DNA of 64,000 bases, taken from positions 1 to 64,000 of the forward strand of contig CAMVKN010000006.1 in NCBI GenBank assembly GCA_947168045.1, read 5' to 3'. The position numbers were made by a program, and so were the translations under genes. Shown in pieces: positions 11,864-59,443 of the stretch (position 1 is its first letter; the number at the start of each line of letters is the position of its first letter). Under the pieces are notes generated by a model. It had not been told where the DNA came from, searched no databases, and saw only the letters and a list, made by a program, of their open reading frames with translations. The DNA is from an uncultured Prevotellaceae bacterium. GTDB taxonomy: Bacteria > Bacteroidota > Bacteroidia > Bacteroidales > Bacteroidaceae.

Positions 11864-14806
11864 TTATTTGATTACAATTCTTTTTCCGTTGTTAATATAG
11901 ATACCCTTGGTGCTGGGCTTGCCATTCAGGCGCACACCGTCGAGCGTGTACCAGCCGTCGAACGAGAGTTCGCCCGTCTTGGTGTCAATTTCTCCGATAG
12001 CGGTCAGGTCACTATTGCGACTGACGAGGCGCACGGTGATGCTCTGGGGCAGGTCGTCGGTGGCGGCTGCGCGGGTCAAACCGCGAGCCGGGGCCGGGGC
12101 CTCCGTGCCGACATACGACAGATAACAGCGCATGGGCTTGATGAAGGCACCTGTAGTGAAGCGGACGAACTGCCCAGCCTCAACGGTTGCCGCGCCGCCA
12201 GCCTCGGTGCCACTTTGGGCTGCAAAGCCGTAGTCATTGCTTGCAACTGCCCAACTCTTCCCTTTATACGTGCCGTGGAAATTCCAGGCTACATCCGTCG
12301 TGGCGCCGCCATAGAGACCATCGTTAGCCGTCGTGGGCTGCAGCGTCACGACTCCGCCCGTCATGTTCACGATGTTCGGGAACGTCATCGTCGTCGCGTC
12401 ATCCGGCATGAACAGATACGGCGTGTTGGCCGTCAGCGTGGTCTCAGCCGTATTGCCCGGCTCCTGCATCGTGCAGACCCACTTGTGCAAGCCTTCGTCG
12501 TACACCACTTCCTTGAAGCCGTAGAACTTGCCGCCCTCGTTGTCGTTGCAGATATAGTTGAACGGCAGTATCACCGTCGCGGCCTGTGCTGTGTTGAACG
12601 GGCGGTTGTAGGTCACGCTCTTGATATTGCCTACCTCCTCCGTGATGTTCACGCCCACGACGTTGACGCCTGTTCCCTGATTGTTTGTGCCGTTGATGGT
12701 CACGTCGGCCCTCTCATTCCACTCATTGAAGCGATATTCCACCACTGCGTCGCCGTACTTCGGCGTGTAGTAGTTGCCGTCGTAGAGGAAGCCGTTCTTG
12801 TAGCCATCCACCATTCCGTGGTCGGTCATCGCATTGCCGAGGTTGGCGGGCGCGACGGTCGCCGTGGCTGCGGGGCGTCCCTGCCTGTTGCCGAGGATGC
12901 TGGTATAGTAGCAGTTTGTCATGTTGTAGGTCGGGTCACTGTTTGGATAGACGAACGTGAAGCAGTTGCCGCCCAGCGCGTATTTGCCCGTGCCGTATGC
13001 AGCGGGGGCGAAGAGGCAGTCGGTGAACGTGACGGTCAGATTACTTCCAAAGAGGTTTCCTATGAAGCCGCTGCAGTAGGTGGTCGCGTAGGCCTCGCTG
13101 GGGTTGTATATCAGTCCGTCATAGACGCAGCCCGTGACGGTGCAGGCGACGTTTGAGCCATACCAAAATGCGATGATACCGCCATGAAAGCCAACGCCGC
13201 TGACTGTGGTGCTGATTTCGGTGCTCACGCGGCAGTTATTGATGGTGATATTGCCCTCGGAATGGCCCACCAGACCGCCCAAGCGCTCATAGGTGCCGCC
13301 CGTGATGGTGCCGCCGACGTGGAGGTTGCTGATGGTGGCGCCATTGATGTAGTGGAACGGGGCGCAGAAGTCCTCGGCGGCAGTTCGGTTAAAGGTCAGC
13401 GTATTGCCCTGTCCGTCGAACGTACCCTTGAACGGGTGACCGCTCTTGCCTGCCATCTCCGATGAACTGACATTTCCAGCGAGTTTCACAACCTTGCCGC
13501 TGAAGCCGTCGGGAGCCAAGTCGTAGTTTGTGGCAAAGCAGAACCAGCCCCAGCCGTTGGCGGTCTTGATGGTGTACTCGTTTTCGCCAGTCTCTGCGAA
13601 GTCGTCCTCGCTGATAGAGAACGTTGCACCAATGTTGACTTCCTCAGCGGGCATGGTGAACGTGTATGTGTTGCTGCCGTTGTCGGTAATACCGCTGCCG
13701 ATGCTGTAGTTTGTCGTTGAGCCCGTCACGGTCAACGACTCTAACGTTTCACCGAACTTCGGCGTGAAGGTGATGGTAACCGTCTGTCCTTCGCCAGCCA
13801 TAGTTGTGCTTGCGTAATCATCGGTGCTGATATTGAACTGCGGATAGATGTTGTTAATGTCACTATAGGCCACTACGTGGAAACTCTGCGTCAGTGTGTA
13901 GTTCGTGCTGCCGATGGTGACAATGAGCCTCGCGGTGTAGTCGCCGACAGCATTTGGTGCATCTGAAGTGTAGTTGGTGCCGTCGGTCGTATAGCGGATG
14001 CCGTCGGTCGTGCCGTTGAGTCCCGTCTGCGTGTTGAATGCTGGCAGGTTGTGCGAGGCAGAGTAATACGTGCCGGGGCGATAGAAAGATTCAGTGGGCG
14101 GCGTGAGCGTCAGCGTGGCCGTATAGCCTGCATCGGCGAGCGAGCACGTTAGTCCGTCGCTGTGTCCGCAGGTGGCGGTCAGCGTGTTCCCTACGGCGTT
14201 GAATGTGAAGTCGTGCGAGTGCGTCGGCTCCACGTTGGGGATGTAGGTGATTATCATCTCGCATCCGGCGCTCTTGTCGATGAAGAATTTGGCATCGACA
14301 CCTAATCTCATGGTGAGGTTGCCGGCAATGCCTGCTGCATCTGTGCTGATAAAGGTGAAACTGGTGCTCTCGCCGCTGGCTCCAACCCCCGTCAGTGCGT
14401 CGTCGGTGCCGTTGTACTTCATGCCGTCGATTGACATGGAGAAAGTACTGCCTCCCTGCTGATTACTACGACCTGCCTTGGTGAACTCCACCTTCGTCAC
14501 CTTGCCATCGACATAGGGAGAAATGAAGAGTTGCACTTCATTCCCTTGGCCAGAAACAGCGGACGTTACGTTCTGTATCTCGAAAGCAGGATTGCTGTTA
14601 AGATAGACGTCCATCATTGTGCCGTTCACGGTTAGAATGGTCTTCTGCGTGTTGTCGTCAGGGTCGGTTGCCTTGATGCTCAAGTAGTCCGAAGTTAATG
14701 AGGCCGTGCTGAACGAGAATGTCTTCGTCAGTTCGACCGCTCCCACCGACTGCGCCGCCACGAGCCAGAAGGCGAGGGTGAGGATGAGATGGAATGATAG
14801 TTTCAT
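11864..14806 (-). CDS. Large secreted/surface protein with Gly-Tyr-Ile C-terminal tail; likely start at MKLSFHLILTLAFWLVAAQSVGA (ORF extends to 14929)
   Basis: Signal peptide after the longest-ORF start; C-terminus DGWYTLDGVRLNGKPSTKGIYINNGKRIVIK, resembling type-A C-terminal tails of T9SS cargo. Confidence 0.7.
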   Translation of the reverse strand: MKLSFHLILTLAFWLVAAQSVGAVELTKTFSFSTASLTSDYLSIKATDPDDNTQKTILTVNGTMMDVYLNSNPAFEIQNVTSAVSGQGNEVQLFISPYVDGKVTKVEFTKAGRSNQQGGSTFSMSIDGMKYNGTDDALTGVGASGESTSFTFISTDAAGIAGNLTMRLGVDAKFFIDKSAGCEMIITYIPNVEPTHSHDFTFNAVGNTLTATCGHSDGLTCSLADAGYTATLTLTPPTESFYRPGTYYSASHNLPAFNTQTGLNGTTDGIRYTTDGTNYTSDAPNAVGDYTARLIVTIGSTNYTLTQSFHVVAYSDINNIYPQFNISTDDYASTTMAGEGQTVTITFTPKFGETLESLTVTGSTTNYSIGSGITDNGSNTYTFTMPAEEVNIGATFSISEDDFAETGENEYTIKTANGWGWFCFATNYDLAPDGFSGKVVKLAGNVSSSEMAGKSGHPFKGTFDGQGNTLTFNRTAAEDFCAPFHYINGATISNLHVGGTITGGTYERLGGLVGHSEGNITINNCRVSTEISTTVSGVGFHGGIIAFWYGSNVACTVTGCVYDGLIYNPSEAYATTYCSGFIGNLFGSNLTVTFTDCLFAPAAYGTGKYALGGNCFTFVYPNSDPTYNMTNCYYTSILGNRQGRPAATATVAPANLGNAMTDHGMVDGYKNGFLYDGNYYTPKYGDAVVEYRFNEWNERADVTINGTNNQGTGVNVVGVNITEEVGNIKSVTYNRPFNTAQAATVILPFNYICNDNEGGKFYGFKEVVYDEGLHKWVCTMQEPGNTAETTLTANTPYLFMPDDATTMTFPNIVNMTGGVVTLQPTTANDGLYGGATTDVAWNFHGTYKGKSWAVASNDYGFAAQSGTEAGGAATVEAGQFVRFTTGAFIKPMRCYLSYVGTEAPAPARGLTRAAATDDLPQSITVRLVSRNSDLTAIGEIDTKTGELSFDGWYTLDGVRLNGKPSTKGIYINNGKRIVIK

Positions 14807-14860
14807 GTGTTTGAGCGTTGCCCGAACATTGCTTTCCCCTTCGGCCAGCGACCGTTGGTT

Positions 14861-14902
14861 CTCACACTCGGCAAAGCTCATGCGAGCATGGCTCTGCTCT
14901 CG
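14861..14902 (-). repeat. CGAGAGCAGAGC... leader element, copy A
   Basis: cgagagcagagccatgctcgcatgagctttgccgagtgtgag (minus) resembles plus-strand 57084-57122. Confidence 0.5.
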
Positions 14903-15019
14903 TTTAATTGAATGTTTCATACTCCTCATTTTGTTTCTTTTTAATTGTTCTTGTATTATGGCTACTTTATAATTCTCTCATCAAAGTCTGGTTGGGGGAA
15001 GCACTGTCAGTATGGGCAT

Positions 15020-15202
15020 AAAGAAAGCGCAGGCCCCGTCCATATTCTCCGACAGGCCCGCGACGGCCTCTATACATCTATGGTTGGAGACTGCGCTAAG
15101 GTGCGCAGTTCCAATGATGTATAGGTTGTGCTCGTAAAAACTCGTTAGAGGTCGCGGTTCGTCGGAGAAATTGAGCAATAAAAAGTCGTGTTCAAGAAAC
15201 AC
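15020..15202 (-). ncRNA. Structured leader RNA, copy 2, with terminator/antiterminator architecture
   Basis: P1 CTCCGAC..CGCGAC / GTCGCG..GTCGGAG, P2 TATACATC/GATGTATA, P3 CTGCGC/GCGCAG, terminator CGCGGGCC/GGCCTGCG + CTTTCTTT; promoter-like TATCTTTG upstream; same layout as 37418-37619. Confidence 0.7.
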
Positions 15203-15207
15203 TGGTG

Positions 15208-15215
15208 CAAAGATA
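15208..15215 (-). promoter_or_regulatory. Bacteroidetes -7 element TATCTTTG for the leader RNA / 11864-14806 gene
   Basis: TAnnTTTG motif on minus strand. Confidence 0.5.
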
Positions 15216-36581: not shown

Positions 36582-36649
36582 TTATTTCTGAACACTAAGA
36601 AAAAATCGGAATAGCCTTGGCGGTTCCGATTTTTGTTTGTACCTTTGCA
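36582..36649 (+). repeat. 68-bp terminator-promoter direct repeat, copy A
   Basis: ttatttctgaacactaagaaaaaatcggaatagccttggcggttccgatttttgtttgtacctttgca; 1 difference from copy B. Confidence 0.95.
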
Positions 36650-36698
36650 ACCAGACTTCGCAATTAGTACTCGCGGAGACCAACATAACCCAAGCAAA

Positions 36699-37346: not shown

Positions 37347-37414
37347 TTATTTCTGAACACTAAGAAAAAATCGGAATAGCCTTGGCGGTTCCGATTTTTG
37401 TTTGTATCTTTGCA
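37347..37414 (+). repeat. 68-bp terminator-promoter direct repeat, copy B
   Basis: Same 68 bp as 36582-36649 with tatctttg instead of tacctttg; 765 bp apart. Confidence 0.95.
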
Positions 37415-37417
37415 CCG

Positions 37418-37619
37418 TCGTTCATGTGGAGACACAAAGGACGGCAGACATCTTATTGCTCAATTCCCAACCGAAACTGCAACATCGAACAAGGAATTAG
37501 AAGAGCAAAGCTTAATCCAGTTGGAGCATGCGCCATGGTGCGCAGGCTTCGGCGTATTGGATTAAGCGGGTTGTTGCAGACCTCGGTTGGGATACGGTGA
37601 GGTCTGCGCTTTTCTTTTA
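37418..37619 (+). ncRNA. Structured leader RNA, copy 1, with terminator/antiterminator architecture
   Basis: P1 CCCAACCGA..CTGCAAC (37466-37483) / GTTGCAG..TCGGTTGGG (37573-37591), P2 GCTTAATCCA/TGGATTAAGC (37510/37558), P3 TGCGC/GCGCA, terminator GCAGACCTC/GAGGTCTGC (37576/37599) + TTTTCTTTT. Confidence 0.75.
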
Positions 37620-37714: not shown

Positions 37715-39745
37715 ATGAAAAGATCTTTACTTAAAACAATGCTCCTGCTATGCGCCCTCATAGTGGGAATGAGTAGTGCGTGGGCAGAGGAAGAAACAAT
37801 AACTTTCCCCACGTCTTCAACAAACGTGGACTGTTCTTCTTTGGGTGTTAGTGTAACAGGAACACATGTGTCTGTTACTATATCAAAGGGGACGAGTTCT
37901 TACCTTGCAACTAATACAGATGGTACACGTATCTATAATGGAAATAGTATGGTGTTTACCTCGACAGACAAAAAAATTTCTAAAATTGTTTTTGCATATA
38001 AAAGAAATAAAAAACAGACAAATGGCGTATCTGCTAATGTTGGTTCATTTACTAATAAATTTACAGTAGGAAACAGCCAAGCATCAAATCTTTCTGCAAC
38101 GTGGGAAGCAAGTGATAACGAAACGGCTAGTGTTACATTTACTGTTGGGAGTGGTTCTGGTAATTATGCCCTTGAGTCAGCTGAGGTAACATTTGTAGAG
38201 GCCGTTGCTCCTACTCACACCGTTACGTTTAGTGTGAACGGTACCACAACGACAGCCACCGTTGCTGAGGGTGCAGCCATTGAATTCCCCAATAATCCTG
38301 CTGATATTAACGGCATGAAGTTCGTGGGCTGGTACACCGATGAATATACTCATGCAACAGATGCTCCATCTTTTGTTACGTCTGCCACGATGGGGGACAG
38401 CGACGTGACTTATTATGCTGTATTTGCTGAGGCAGAAGCAACAGGACAAACAGTTGAAACAAAAACGCAGACGTTACAGTATGACACTTGGACGTATAGT
38501 GGGACTACAACTAACATGACATCTTATCGTTTATTTGCTGAAAACAGCTATATCGAGTCTGCCTCTTTCGACTTGAGCAAACTTTCGAAAGTCATAGTTT
38601 ATGCAGGTACTTATGGCACTTTATCATCTGCAAATAAGAAAGTAACCGTTACTGCTGGTGAGACTACCTGGGGCAGTGCTACTTTGACAACTAATAGCGC
38701 AACAACACAAAATACTATAACCAGTAACACATCACTTTCAGAAAGTGGCAACTTACATATTGTTGCAGGTGGGGGCGATGGTGATAATAATGGTATTCGT
38801 ATCTCTAAGGTAGAGATCTTTACGAATGAACCGGTTTTTGATTATAGCAACTATTGCACAACAGTACCATCACCTGCGATTACCCTCAGCACTAATTTGG
38901 TTGAGGCTACAGCTGACGGGACAGAAAGTACCACCATCAACGTGACCTACACAGCTATTGAAACCAGCGTTGGAGTCGACTTTGTTTGGTACACAGATGA
39001 AACAGCTAATACAGCTATTACAGATGATGATGAACCCGACTGGCTTATACCTGAAATCAATTCAAGCAATAACTTGGCATTTCTTTTTGAAGAAAACACA
39101 GGTGCAGCACGCACGGCCTATATGAAGGTCTATGCCCTCGACGTCAATGGTGAAGATGTTTATTCAGAGCTGATTACCATCACCCAGGCAGCTGCCACTC
39201 TGCCTATTACCGTTTCCGAAGCTGGCTGGGCAACCTTCGCCCCCACGCAGAACGTGTCGTTCGACCCTGAGGTGATGTCTGTTTACGTGGTGACAAATGC
39301 TACGACGACGAGTGCTACGCTGCAGTCGGTGTCTTCAGTGCCTGCTAACACGCCCGTACTGATTTGCGCCGAGGCTGGAACCTATGGTCTCCCAGTGGTT
39401 GATGCTGCTACAGCTCCTACTACCAACCTTCTCCAAGTCAGCAACGGCTCAATCGTTGGCAATGGCTCCACCATCTACAGTTTGGCTAAGATTGATGATG
39501 TAGGCTTCTACCTCGTAGGCAATGGCGTGACCATTCCCGCAGGCAAGTGCTATCTGGACATAGGCACGCAGGGGCAAGGCAATGCCCGTGCATTCCTGAC
39601 CCTTGGTGGCAACACCGAGACTGGCATCACCACGGTGGCTGCTGACGCTGCCGATGGCAACATCTATGACCTAACGGGTCGCCGCGTCTCTGGTGTGGCT
39701 CGTGGCCTGTACATCGTCAACGGCAAGAAGGTCGTGCTGAAATAA
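37715..39745 (+). CDS. Secreted surface protein with InlB-like repeat and GLYIVNGKKVVLK tail
   Basis: Signal peptide MKRSLLKTMLLLCALIVGMSSAWA; GMKFVGWYTDEYTHA; C-terminal YDLTGRRVSGVARGLYIVNGKKVVLK. Confidence 0.75.
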   Translation: MKRSLLKTMLLLCALIVGMSSAWAEEETITFPTSSTNVDCSSLGVSVTGTHVSVTISKGTSSYLATNTDGTRIYNGNSMVFTSTDKKISKIVFAYKRNKKQTNGVSANVGSFTNKFTVGNSQASNLSATWEASDNETASVTFTVGSGSGNYALESAEVTFVEAVAPTHTVTFSVNGTTTTATVAEGAAIEFPNNPADINGMKFVGWYTDEYTHATDAPSFVTSATMGDSDVTYYAVFAEAEATGQTVETKTQTLQYDTWTYSGTTTNMTSYRLFAENSYIESASFDLSKLSKVIVYAGTYGTLSSANKKVTVTAGETTWGSATLTTNSATTQNTITSNTSLSESGNLHIVAGGGDGDNNGIRISKVEIFTNEPVFDYSNYCTTVPSPAITLSTNLVEATADGTESTTINVTYTAIETSVGVDFVWYTDETANTAITDDDEPDWLIPEINSSNNLAFLFEENTGAARTAYMKVYALDVNGEDVYSELITITQAAATLPITVSEAGWATFAPTQNVSFDPEVMSVYVVTNATTTSATLQSVSSVPANTPVLICAEAGTYGLPVVDAATAPTTNLLQVSNGSIVGNGSTIYSLAKIDDVGFYLVGNGVTIPAGKCYLDIGTQGQGNARAFLTLGGNTETGITTVAADAADGNIYDLTGRRVSGVARGLYIVNGKKVVLK

Positions 39746-39818: not shown

Positions 39819-39977
39819 ATGAAGAAGACATATATGCACCCCACAACGAGCATCGTCCGTGTGGAGACACAGCAGATGATTGCCGAGTCAGTGACAGTTA
39901 ATGGCTCAAAGACCATCAGTAACTCTAACCAGATTCTCTCCCGTGGTCGCAACAGCGACTGGGACGACGAGGATTAA
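39819..39977 (+). CDS. Small KxYxxP...WDD peptide
   Basis: MKKTYMHPTTSIVRVETQQMIAES...RNSDWDDED; same motifs as the other two cassettes. Confidence 0.65.
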   Translation: MKKTYMHPTTSIVRVETQQMIAESVTVNGSKTISNSNQILSRGRNSDWDDED

Positions 39978-59263: not shown

Positions 59264-59443
59264 ATGATTAAGAAAGCATACGAGAAGCCCACAATGCAAG
59301 TGTTTGAGGCCGACATGGAACAACAGATTCTGGCTGGCTCGCTTACGAGTGTATCGACCTCAGGTCTCGATGAAGAGGAAGAACTGGAACTGCCGGGCGA
59401 AGGCTTACCCACAACAGGCAACGTATGGGATGACGCTTGGTAA
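59264..59443 (+). CDS. Small KxYxxP...WDD peptide
   Basis: MIKKAYEKPTMQVFEADMEQQILAGS...GNVWDDAW; 18 nt after the secreted-protein gene. Confidence 0.7.
   Translation: MIKKAYEKPTMQVFEADMEQQILAGSLTSVSTSGLDEEEELELPGEGLPTTGNVWDDAW

Follow-up and report, generated by a model that had tools for sequence, protein, structure and literature searches.

The segment at 37418-37619 (+) of the window, the term used here for the whole 64,000-nucleotide stretch of DNA analysed, precedes a gene for a secreted protein and raises the question of whether it specifies a regulatory RNA, and how such an RNA would act on the gene. The first-pass annotation had proposed a riboswitch or attenuator composed of a promoter, a two-part closing helix (P1a/P1b) around the helices P2 and P3, and a terminator stem; each of these elements was located in the sequence. 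In our assessment, the RNA is likely to form the 5' leader of the mRNA of the 37715 gene and to belong to a new family of attenuators (conditional transcription terminators) that occurs in the Bacteroidales and some other Bacteroidia. The features of this copy (copy 1) and its gene, with the basis for each, are as follows.

37401..37412 (+): promoter, TTTG, spacer and TATCTTTG (37405-37412), a Bacteroidota TAnnTTTG -7 box; sequence
37415..37444 (+): 5'-terminal hairpin (CCGTC/GACGG, TGTG/CACA); sequence and folding against shuffles
37453..37618 (+): whole structured RNA, model positions 1-164; E 9.8e-35 with covariance model R1, also matched by R2 and R3 (E-values of R1-R3 are rough)
37453-37465 (+): TTATTGCTCAATT, 5' of P1a
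37456..37461 (+): P0 5' strand TTGCTC (pseudoknot), pairing with 37503-37508; compensatory in L014, L119, L123, L126 and L134
37462..37467 (+): PX 5' strand AATTCC, overlapping outer P1a and pairing with GGAATT at 37493-37498; swap test and compensation in distant copies
37466..37483 (+): 5' strands of P1a (CCCAACCGA, 37466-37474) and P1b (CTGCAAC, 37477-37483) with AA between; nearly all pairs compensatory
37493..37498 (+): PX 3' strand GGAATT; same basis as the PX 5' strand
37503..37508 (+): P0 3' strand GAGCAA, partner of 37456-37461; same compensatory copies
37510..37519 (+): P2 5' strand GCTTAATCCA; 9/9 modelled pairs compensatory
37529..37544 (+): P3 hairpin, the putative anti-terminator, TGCGC (37529-37533) / GCGCA (37540-37544); compensatory changes, swap test
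37540..37550 (+): T2 5' arm, the P3 3' strand, GCGCAGGCTTC, pairing with 37599-37609; 8/8 pairs compensatory in an independent set
37553..37557 (+): P4 5' strand CGTAT (CCATA in most copies), pairing with ATACG at 37592-37596; compensatory
37558..37567 (+): P2 3' strand TGGATTAAGC; covariation
37573..37591 (+): P1b 3' strand GTTGCAG (37573-37579), ACC bulge, P1a 3' strand TCGGTTGGG (37583-37591); covariation
37576-37584 and 37599-37607 (+): T1, the terminator of the first-pass annotation, GCAGACCTC / GAGGTCTGC, then TTTTCTTTT
37592..37596 (+): P4 3' strand ATACG; covariation
37599..37609 (+): terminator 3' arm GAGGTCTGCGC, pairing in T2 and, in Prevotella, also in T1
37610..37619 (+): U tract; the family has nine U-rich positions directly after the 3' arm
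37715..39745 (+): gene under the putative control of copy 1, a 676-aa secreted protein (signal peptide, Flg_new repeat, T9SS-like C-terminus)

The fold of copy 1 reached -84.3 kcal/mol (z = -6.1), and none of 200 dinucleotide shuffles folded as well.

Copies in the same genome

A second copy, suspected near 15020-15202, was confirmed on the opposite strand, where its structured part (15018-15182, -; z = -4.8) was matched by the covariance model. The window contains the motif TTATTGCTCAATT at exactly two places, one per RNA copy.

15018..15215 (-): copy 2 including its promoter (CAAAGATA at 15208-15215); covariance model and folding
11864..14929 (-): gene 3' of copy 2, a 1021-aa secreted InlB-repeat protein

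A third copy, on contig C4, emerged when the window's own genome was searched at the DNA level. Across these three copies, compensatory changes were present in 17 of 35 pairs, against a shuffled mean of 5.7. The genome contains five copies in total, one of them truncated by a contig end. The fourth (L262; G000:C2:59060-59220, -) has retained its promoter, P0 (TGGCTC/GAGCCA) and T2, and is followed by just an 18-codon ORF, which may represent a target in decay or encode a genuine small peptide. Elsewhere, a weak partial second match (L215:523-651, -; 24.5 bits) lies near and opposite a full copy and may be a remnant.

Extent of the family

Covariance models were built from the three copies of the window's genome (R1), from 62 copies (R2) and from 95 copies (R3). 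Within the window's genus, R1 matched 166 of 399 genomes (~40%), many of them with several copies and up to seven per genome. R2 matched 21/395 Bacteroidales genomes and had no match in a phylum-wide sample of 299 other genomes. The more sensitive R3 matched 61 of the 395 Bacteroidales genomes, from 39 genera, and gave weak but convincing matches to divergent copies in seven of the 299 others, all of the same class (Bacteroidia). Covarying homologues were found in this way, also upstream of other secreted-protein genes, which bears out the proposal of a wider family. A sequence-only pattern scan of GTDB genomes returned at least 120 stretches; all were from Bacteroidales among the matches listed, including Segatella copri, Parabacteroides faecalis, Phocaeicola, Muribaculaceae, Rikenellaceae and Paludibacteraceae. 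The structural model fitted all 80 of the listed loci (80 of at least 120). The assignment of the window's genus to Prevotella, in the wide sense, is based on the named relatives among these matches. The RNA reaches well beyond Prevotella, into the Bacteroidales at large and some other Bacteroidia.

Secondary structure and covariation

The helices P1-P3 were assessed on 83 sequences outside the model, in which 96.0% of the cells paired. There were 854 double-change cells, compared with 249 in the shuffled control and 165 in the best slid control; the shuffle control ignores kinship among copies, a shortcoming that is offset in part by the slid control and by the consistency between families. 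As the Prevotella copies are related, sequence counts overstate the number of independent events. Comparison among these independent sequences indicates that P1a, P1b, P2 and P3 had been drawn correctly in the first pass, which had missed the P0/PX pseudoknot, the P4 pseudoknot, T2 and the 5'-terminal hairpin.

P0, P4 and T2 are in no model. When the same 83 sequences were aligned by P1-P3 only, 92.8% of the cells of these three helices were paired, with 50 double changes (11.9 shuffled), and all eight T2 pairs were compensatory. P0 joins TTGCTC, 5' of P1, to GAGCAA in the P1-P2 linker, forming a pseudoknot. It is nearly invariant in Prevotella and compensatory elsewhere (TAGCTC/GAGCTA, ATAGCCT/AGGCTAT, CAGCCT/AGGCTG), and a compensatory variant, TGGCTC/GAGCCA, is present in the C2 copy of the window's own genome. 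PX extends P0 on the outer P1a strand (AATTCC/GGAATT in copy 1); its own partner was better than swapped ones in 115 of 158 copies (p=7e-11), and distant copies show compensation (ATCTCGT/ACGAGAT, ATCCTGT/ACAGGAT, TTTATGC/GCATAAA). P4 forms a second pseudoknot between CCATA, located between P3 and the P2 3' strand, and TATGG after the P1a 3' strand; its variants include CGTAT/ATACG (copy 1), CCATT/AATGG, CCGTT/AACGG and TCATA/TATGA. The interval of the 5'-terminal hairpin folded better than its shuffled counterpart in 132/136 copies (mean -8.05 versus -3.13 kcal/mol). Conserved loops include AA/RCC and ACCUC. A small CUC[GAAA]GAG hairpin was noticed by eye in the linker, in a region overlapping PX. 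A further hairpin (helix 2), placed at the wrong alignment columns, failed.

The predicted terminator and its competition with P3

The first-pass annotation had assigned the terminator to T1, in which the P1b 3' strand and ACC (RCC in the family) pair with the 3' arm and P1 would be the antiterminator. A terminator stem and an exclusive alternative fold do both exist; across the family, however, the partner of the 3' arm is the P3 3' strand rather than a P1 strand. This duplex, T2, joins the P3 3' strand to the last G+C-rich segment before the U tract. Its energy was -13.95 kcal/mol (shuffled, -5.7), and it comprised at least six contiguous base pairs in about 150 of 158 copies, for example ACGTAGTGCCT/AGGCACTGCGT in L134 and GCGTAGAATCATT/AATGGTTCTACGC in L123. 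In 27 distant copies it was maintained at -14.1 kcal/mol (shuffled, -6.0). In copy 1, T1 forms a perfect stem of 9 bp; within Prevotella it receives some support, its own partners beating swapped ones in 41/60 copies. The stem is disrupted outside Prevotella: A4 has A-C at one pair in 29 of 95 copies and C-C at another in 16. Over all copies the own partner was better in 86/158 only, whereas T2 persists with compensatory changes. T1 would furthermore need to break the very stable P1, and we regard it as unlikely to be the operative terminator. Comparison of the copies identifies T2 as the family-wide predicted terminator.

The terminator 3' arm repeats the P3 5' strand; P3 and T2 therefore compete for one strand. 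P3 was more stable with its own than with swapped partners (-11.0 versus -7.9 kcal/mol). The energies of P3 and T2 differed by a mean of 3.1 kcal/mol, and by less than 5 in 109/152 copies; this near-balance suggests the signature of a switch, though alone it is no proof. Covariation and calculated energies indicate that the two are mutually exclusive, like the alternative stems of a riboswitch expression platform. A U-rich tract of nine positions, often interrupted by C (TTTCTTT), begins directly after the T2 3' arm. T2 thereby resembles an intrinsic terminator, with a stable stem directly 5' of a U tract, apart from its unusually long loop (median 49 nt). As this loop crosses P1 and P2, T2 must form as a pseudoknot or after P1 and P2 open.

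Promoter, leader position and downstream genes

A TAnnTTTG box was present within 120 nt upstream of 141 of the 158 copies (15.4 in shuffled sequence, 15 antisense), mostly 40-60 nt 5' of P1. The longest nearby ORF was co-directional in 136/146 cases, with its start a median of 73 nt downstream. Between the RNA and the ORF, a promoter box was found in 1/111 cases (shuffled, 4.3). Since a promoter lies upstream and the stretch from RNA to gene almost never has one, expression of the gene requires read-through of a conserved terminator, which must therefore be conditional. The conserved structured core thus lies in a 5' leader, as in riboswitches.

The placement in leaders of secreted-protein genes was upheld: by a simple, crude signal-peptide rule, not SignalP, 89 of 113 non-redundant downstream proteins were secreted or lipid-anchored, against 120/462 background ORFs (p=6e-25). 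They include proteins with BspA leucine-rich repeats, Big_2 lipoproteins, proteins with InlB-type repeats and T9SS tails, a radical SAM protein, an SPFH protein and many without any Pfam match. A single shared family among the controlled proteins was rejected, as none was found among 95 downstream proteins, and these do not converge on the pathway of one ligand. Such convergence is common, not obligatory, for riboswitches. The lack of a common pathway among the downstream genes means that they offer no clue to a ligand.

Several further features of these loci were observed. Near-identical repeats of ~50 bp (AAAAATCGGAATAGCCTTGGCGGTTCCGATTTTTGTTTGTAyCTTTGCA) lie at 36601-36652, 5' of a small ORF and a DUF6169 gene, and at 37369-37420, 5' of the copy 1 RNA; each consists of a terminator hairpin with a T tract that continues into a TTTG...TAnnTTTG promoter. 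A short peptide, MKKTYMHP...RGRNSDWDDED, is encoded at 39819-39977, directly after the 37715 gene, and also at 59264. Similar peptides of 50-65 aa (MKKxYxxP..., ending WDDE/WDDAW) follow the secreted gene at about a dozen loci, including L056, L067, L079, L086, L102, L147 and L198, and had no match in Pfam or NCBIfam. The protein at 14929 (-) and those of the Prevotella loci L051, L052, L069 and L072 are secreted paralogues that share a near-identical N-terminal extension, MRSMKHSIKREQSHARMSFAECENQRSLAEGESNVRATLKHMKLSFHLILTLA, as well as the leader RNA; RNA and signal region seem to have spread as one cassette, the rest of the protein differing. At L071, L073 and L075 (Prevotella) the RNA precedes not a secreted-protein gene but radical SAM genes resembling peptide-maturation clusters.

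Proposed mechanism and alternatives

Transcription would start just 3' of TATCTTTG. The 5' hairpin would form first, followed by P0/PX, whose loop would later pair with the P1 3' strand to close the pseudoknot, and P2 and the P3 hairpin would fold within P1. The last segment to be transcribed would carry UACGG (usually UAUGG) and GAGGUCUGCGC. UACGG pairs with CGUAU (usually CCAUA) beside P3 to give P4, probably a toehold, from which GAGGUCUGCGC, a copy of the P3 5' strand, would displace that strand and form T2 right before the U tract, stopping transcription. If P3 were held, RNA polymerase would continue into the secreted-protein gene. From this arrangement we infer that T2 terminates, that termination is the default, and that the outcome is decided by a signal that binds the P0/P1/P2 core, most likely a small molecule as in a riboswitch.

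What the signal is bears on the class of the RNA. The riboswitch-like anatomy favours a small molecule; a protein would also be compatible with the diversity of the regulon and the conservation of the loops. Tentatively, and with slightly less than even confidence, the family may be a new riboswitch class, extending from the Bacteroidales to other Bacteroidia, whose doubly pseudoknotted core would sense a signal molecule. Through toehold-assisted strand exchange, with one strand common to anti-terminator and terminator, it would set the expression of a large part of the secreted and surface proteome. The same attenuator could instead be governed by an RNA-binding protein, such as a specialised NusG/UpxY-type antiterminator, or by a trans-acting sRNA. 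Many unrelated surface-protein targets would suit a regulon with a dedicated regulator, and the 5'-terminal hairpin and the conserved loops could be protein sites; complex nested pseudoknots, however, are more typical of metabolite aptamers, and we consider this option possible but rather doubtful.

Explanations other than an attenuator fared less well. That the RNA is a stand-alone sRNA gene lying beside secreted-protein genes by chance would agree with its own promoter and terminator-like 3' end, but is very unlikely given the near absence of a second promoter, the fixed spacing and orientation relative to the gene and the strong bias towards secreted proteins. A DNA element by which gene cassettes are disseminated, such as an attC-like hairpin, a repeat or an insertion site, might account for several copies per genome, long inverted repeats and a different gene behind each copy. 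It was rejected as highly improbable: the promoter and U tract are directional, the alternative pairings covary, and G-U pairs are ten times commoner than A-C (124 versus 12), because of which we conclude that this strand acts as RNA. Mobile DNA also scarcely carries it, with one match only among viral contigs and none in a plasmid search with copy 1. A leader-peptide attenuator was likewise rejected, as ATG uORFs of at least 10 codons were present in 68/141 copies, fewer than in shuffled sequence (82.3), and at scattered positions. In W37 a 58-codon frame does run through the RNA, but frames of this kind are less common than in shuffles and have no shared position.

Prevotella and its relatives rank among the most abundant bacteria of gut and rumen, and little is known of how they choose their surface proteins. 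A riboswitch-sized RNA class present in ~40% of the sampled genomes of the genus, with a clear switching anatomy, would offer a direct route to the signal that controls the secreted proteome, and the alignments and models suffice to begin ligand screens and reporter tests.

Comparison with known RNAs

No family of Rfam 15 reached its gathering score in cmscan for any copy tested. Copies 1 and 2, compared at E up to 5, gave nothing except a trivial microRNA match, and there was no relevant match for the copies scanned at E up to 1-5. A known Rfam RNA was thus rejected, in agreement with the original impression of an unfamiliar class. The family is absent from Rfam 15, appears to be new as a class and is, in kind, a transcription attenuator or candidate riboswitch.

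Four other computationally found RNAs of the same phylum, Bacteroidales-1 (RF01693), Bacteroides-1 (RF01694), Flavo-1 (RF01705) and Bacteroid-trp (RF01692), are listed in PMC2864571, and none matches any tested copy of the new RNA. Our literature searches found no description of it; for the HMP2 candidate RNAs of Fremin and Bhatt 2021 (PMC8040213), this comparison covers the main-text descriptions. Some of these candidates are from Bacteroidetes and lie near radical SAM (HMP2_1881, 108 bp) or TPR genes, neighbours that also occur 3' of the new RNA, and the passages describing them propose no mechanism.

With transcription-terminating riboswitches the new RNA shares a 5' leader position, a compact conserved pseudoknotted core, exclusive anti-terminator and terminator stems and a U tract. 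Unlike them, it precedes genes that share no pathway, and the 5' arm of its predicted terminator lies within the core (P3) rather than in a platform distinct from it. Signal-type riboswitches such as c-di-GMP (GEMM) control varied surface genes. The new RNA differs from GEMM in fold and sequence, with no Rfam match, and resembles it as a class associated with many unrelated extracellular-protein genes and with several copies per genome.
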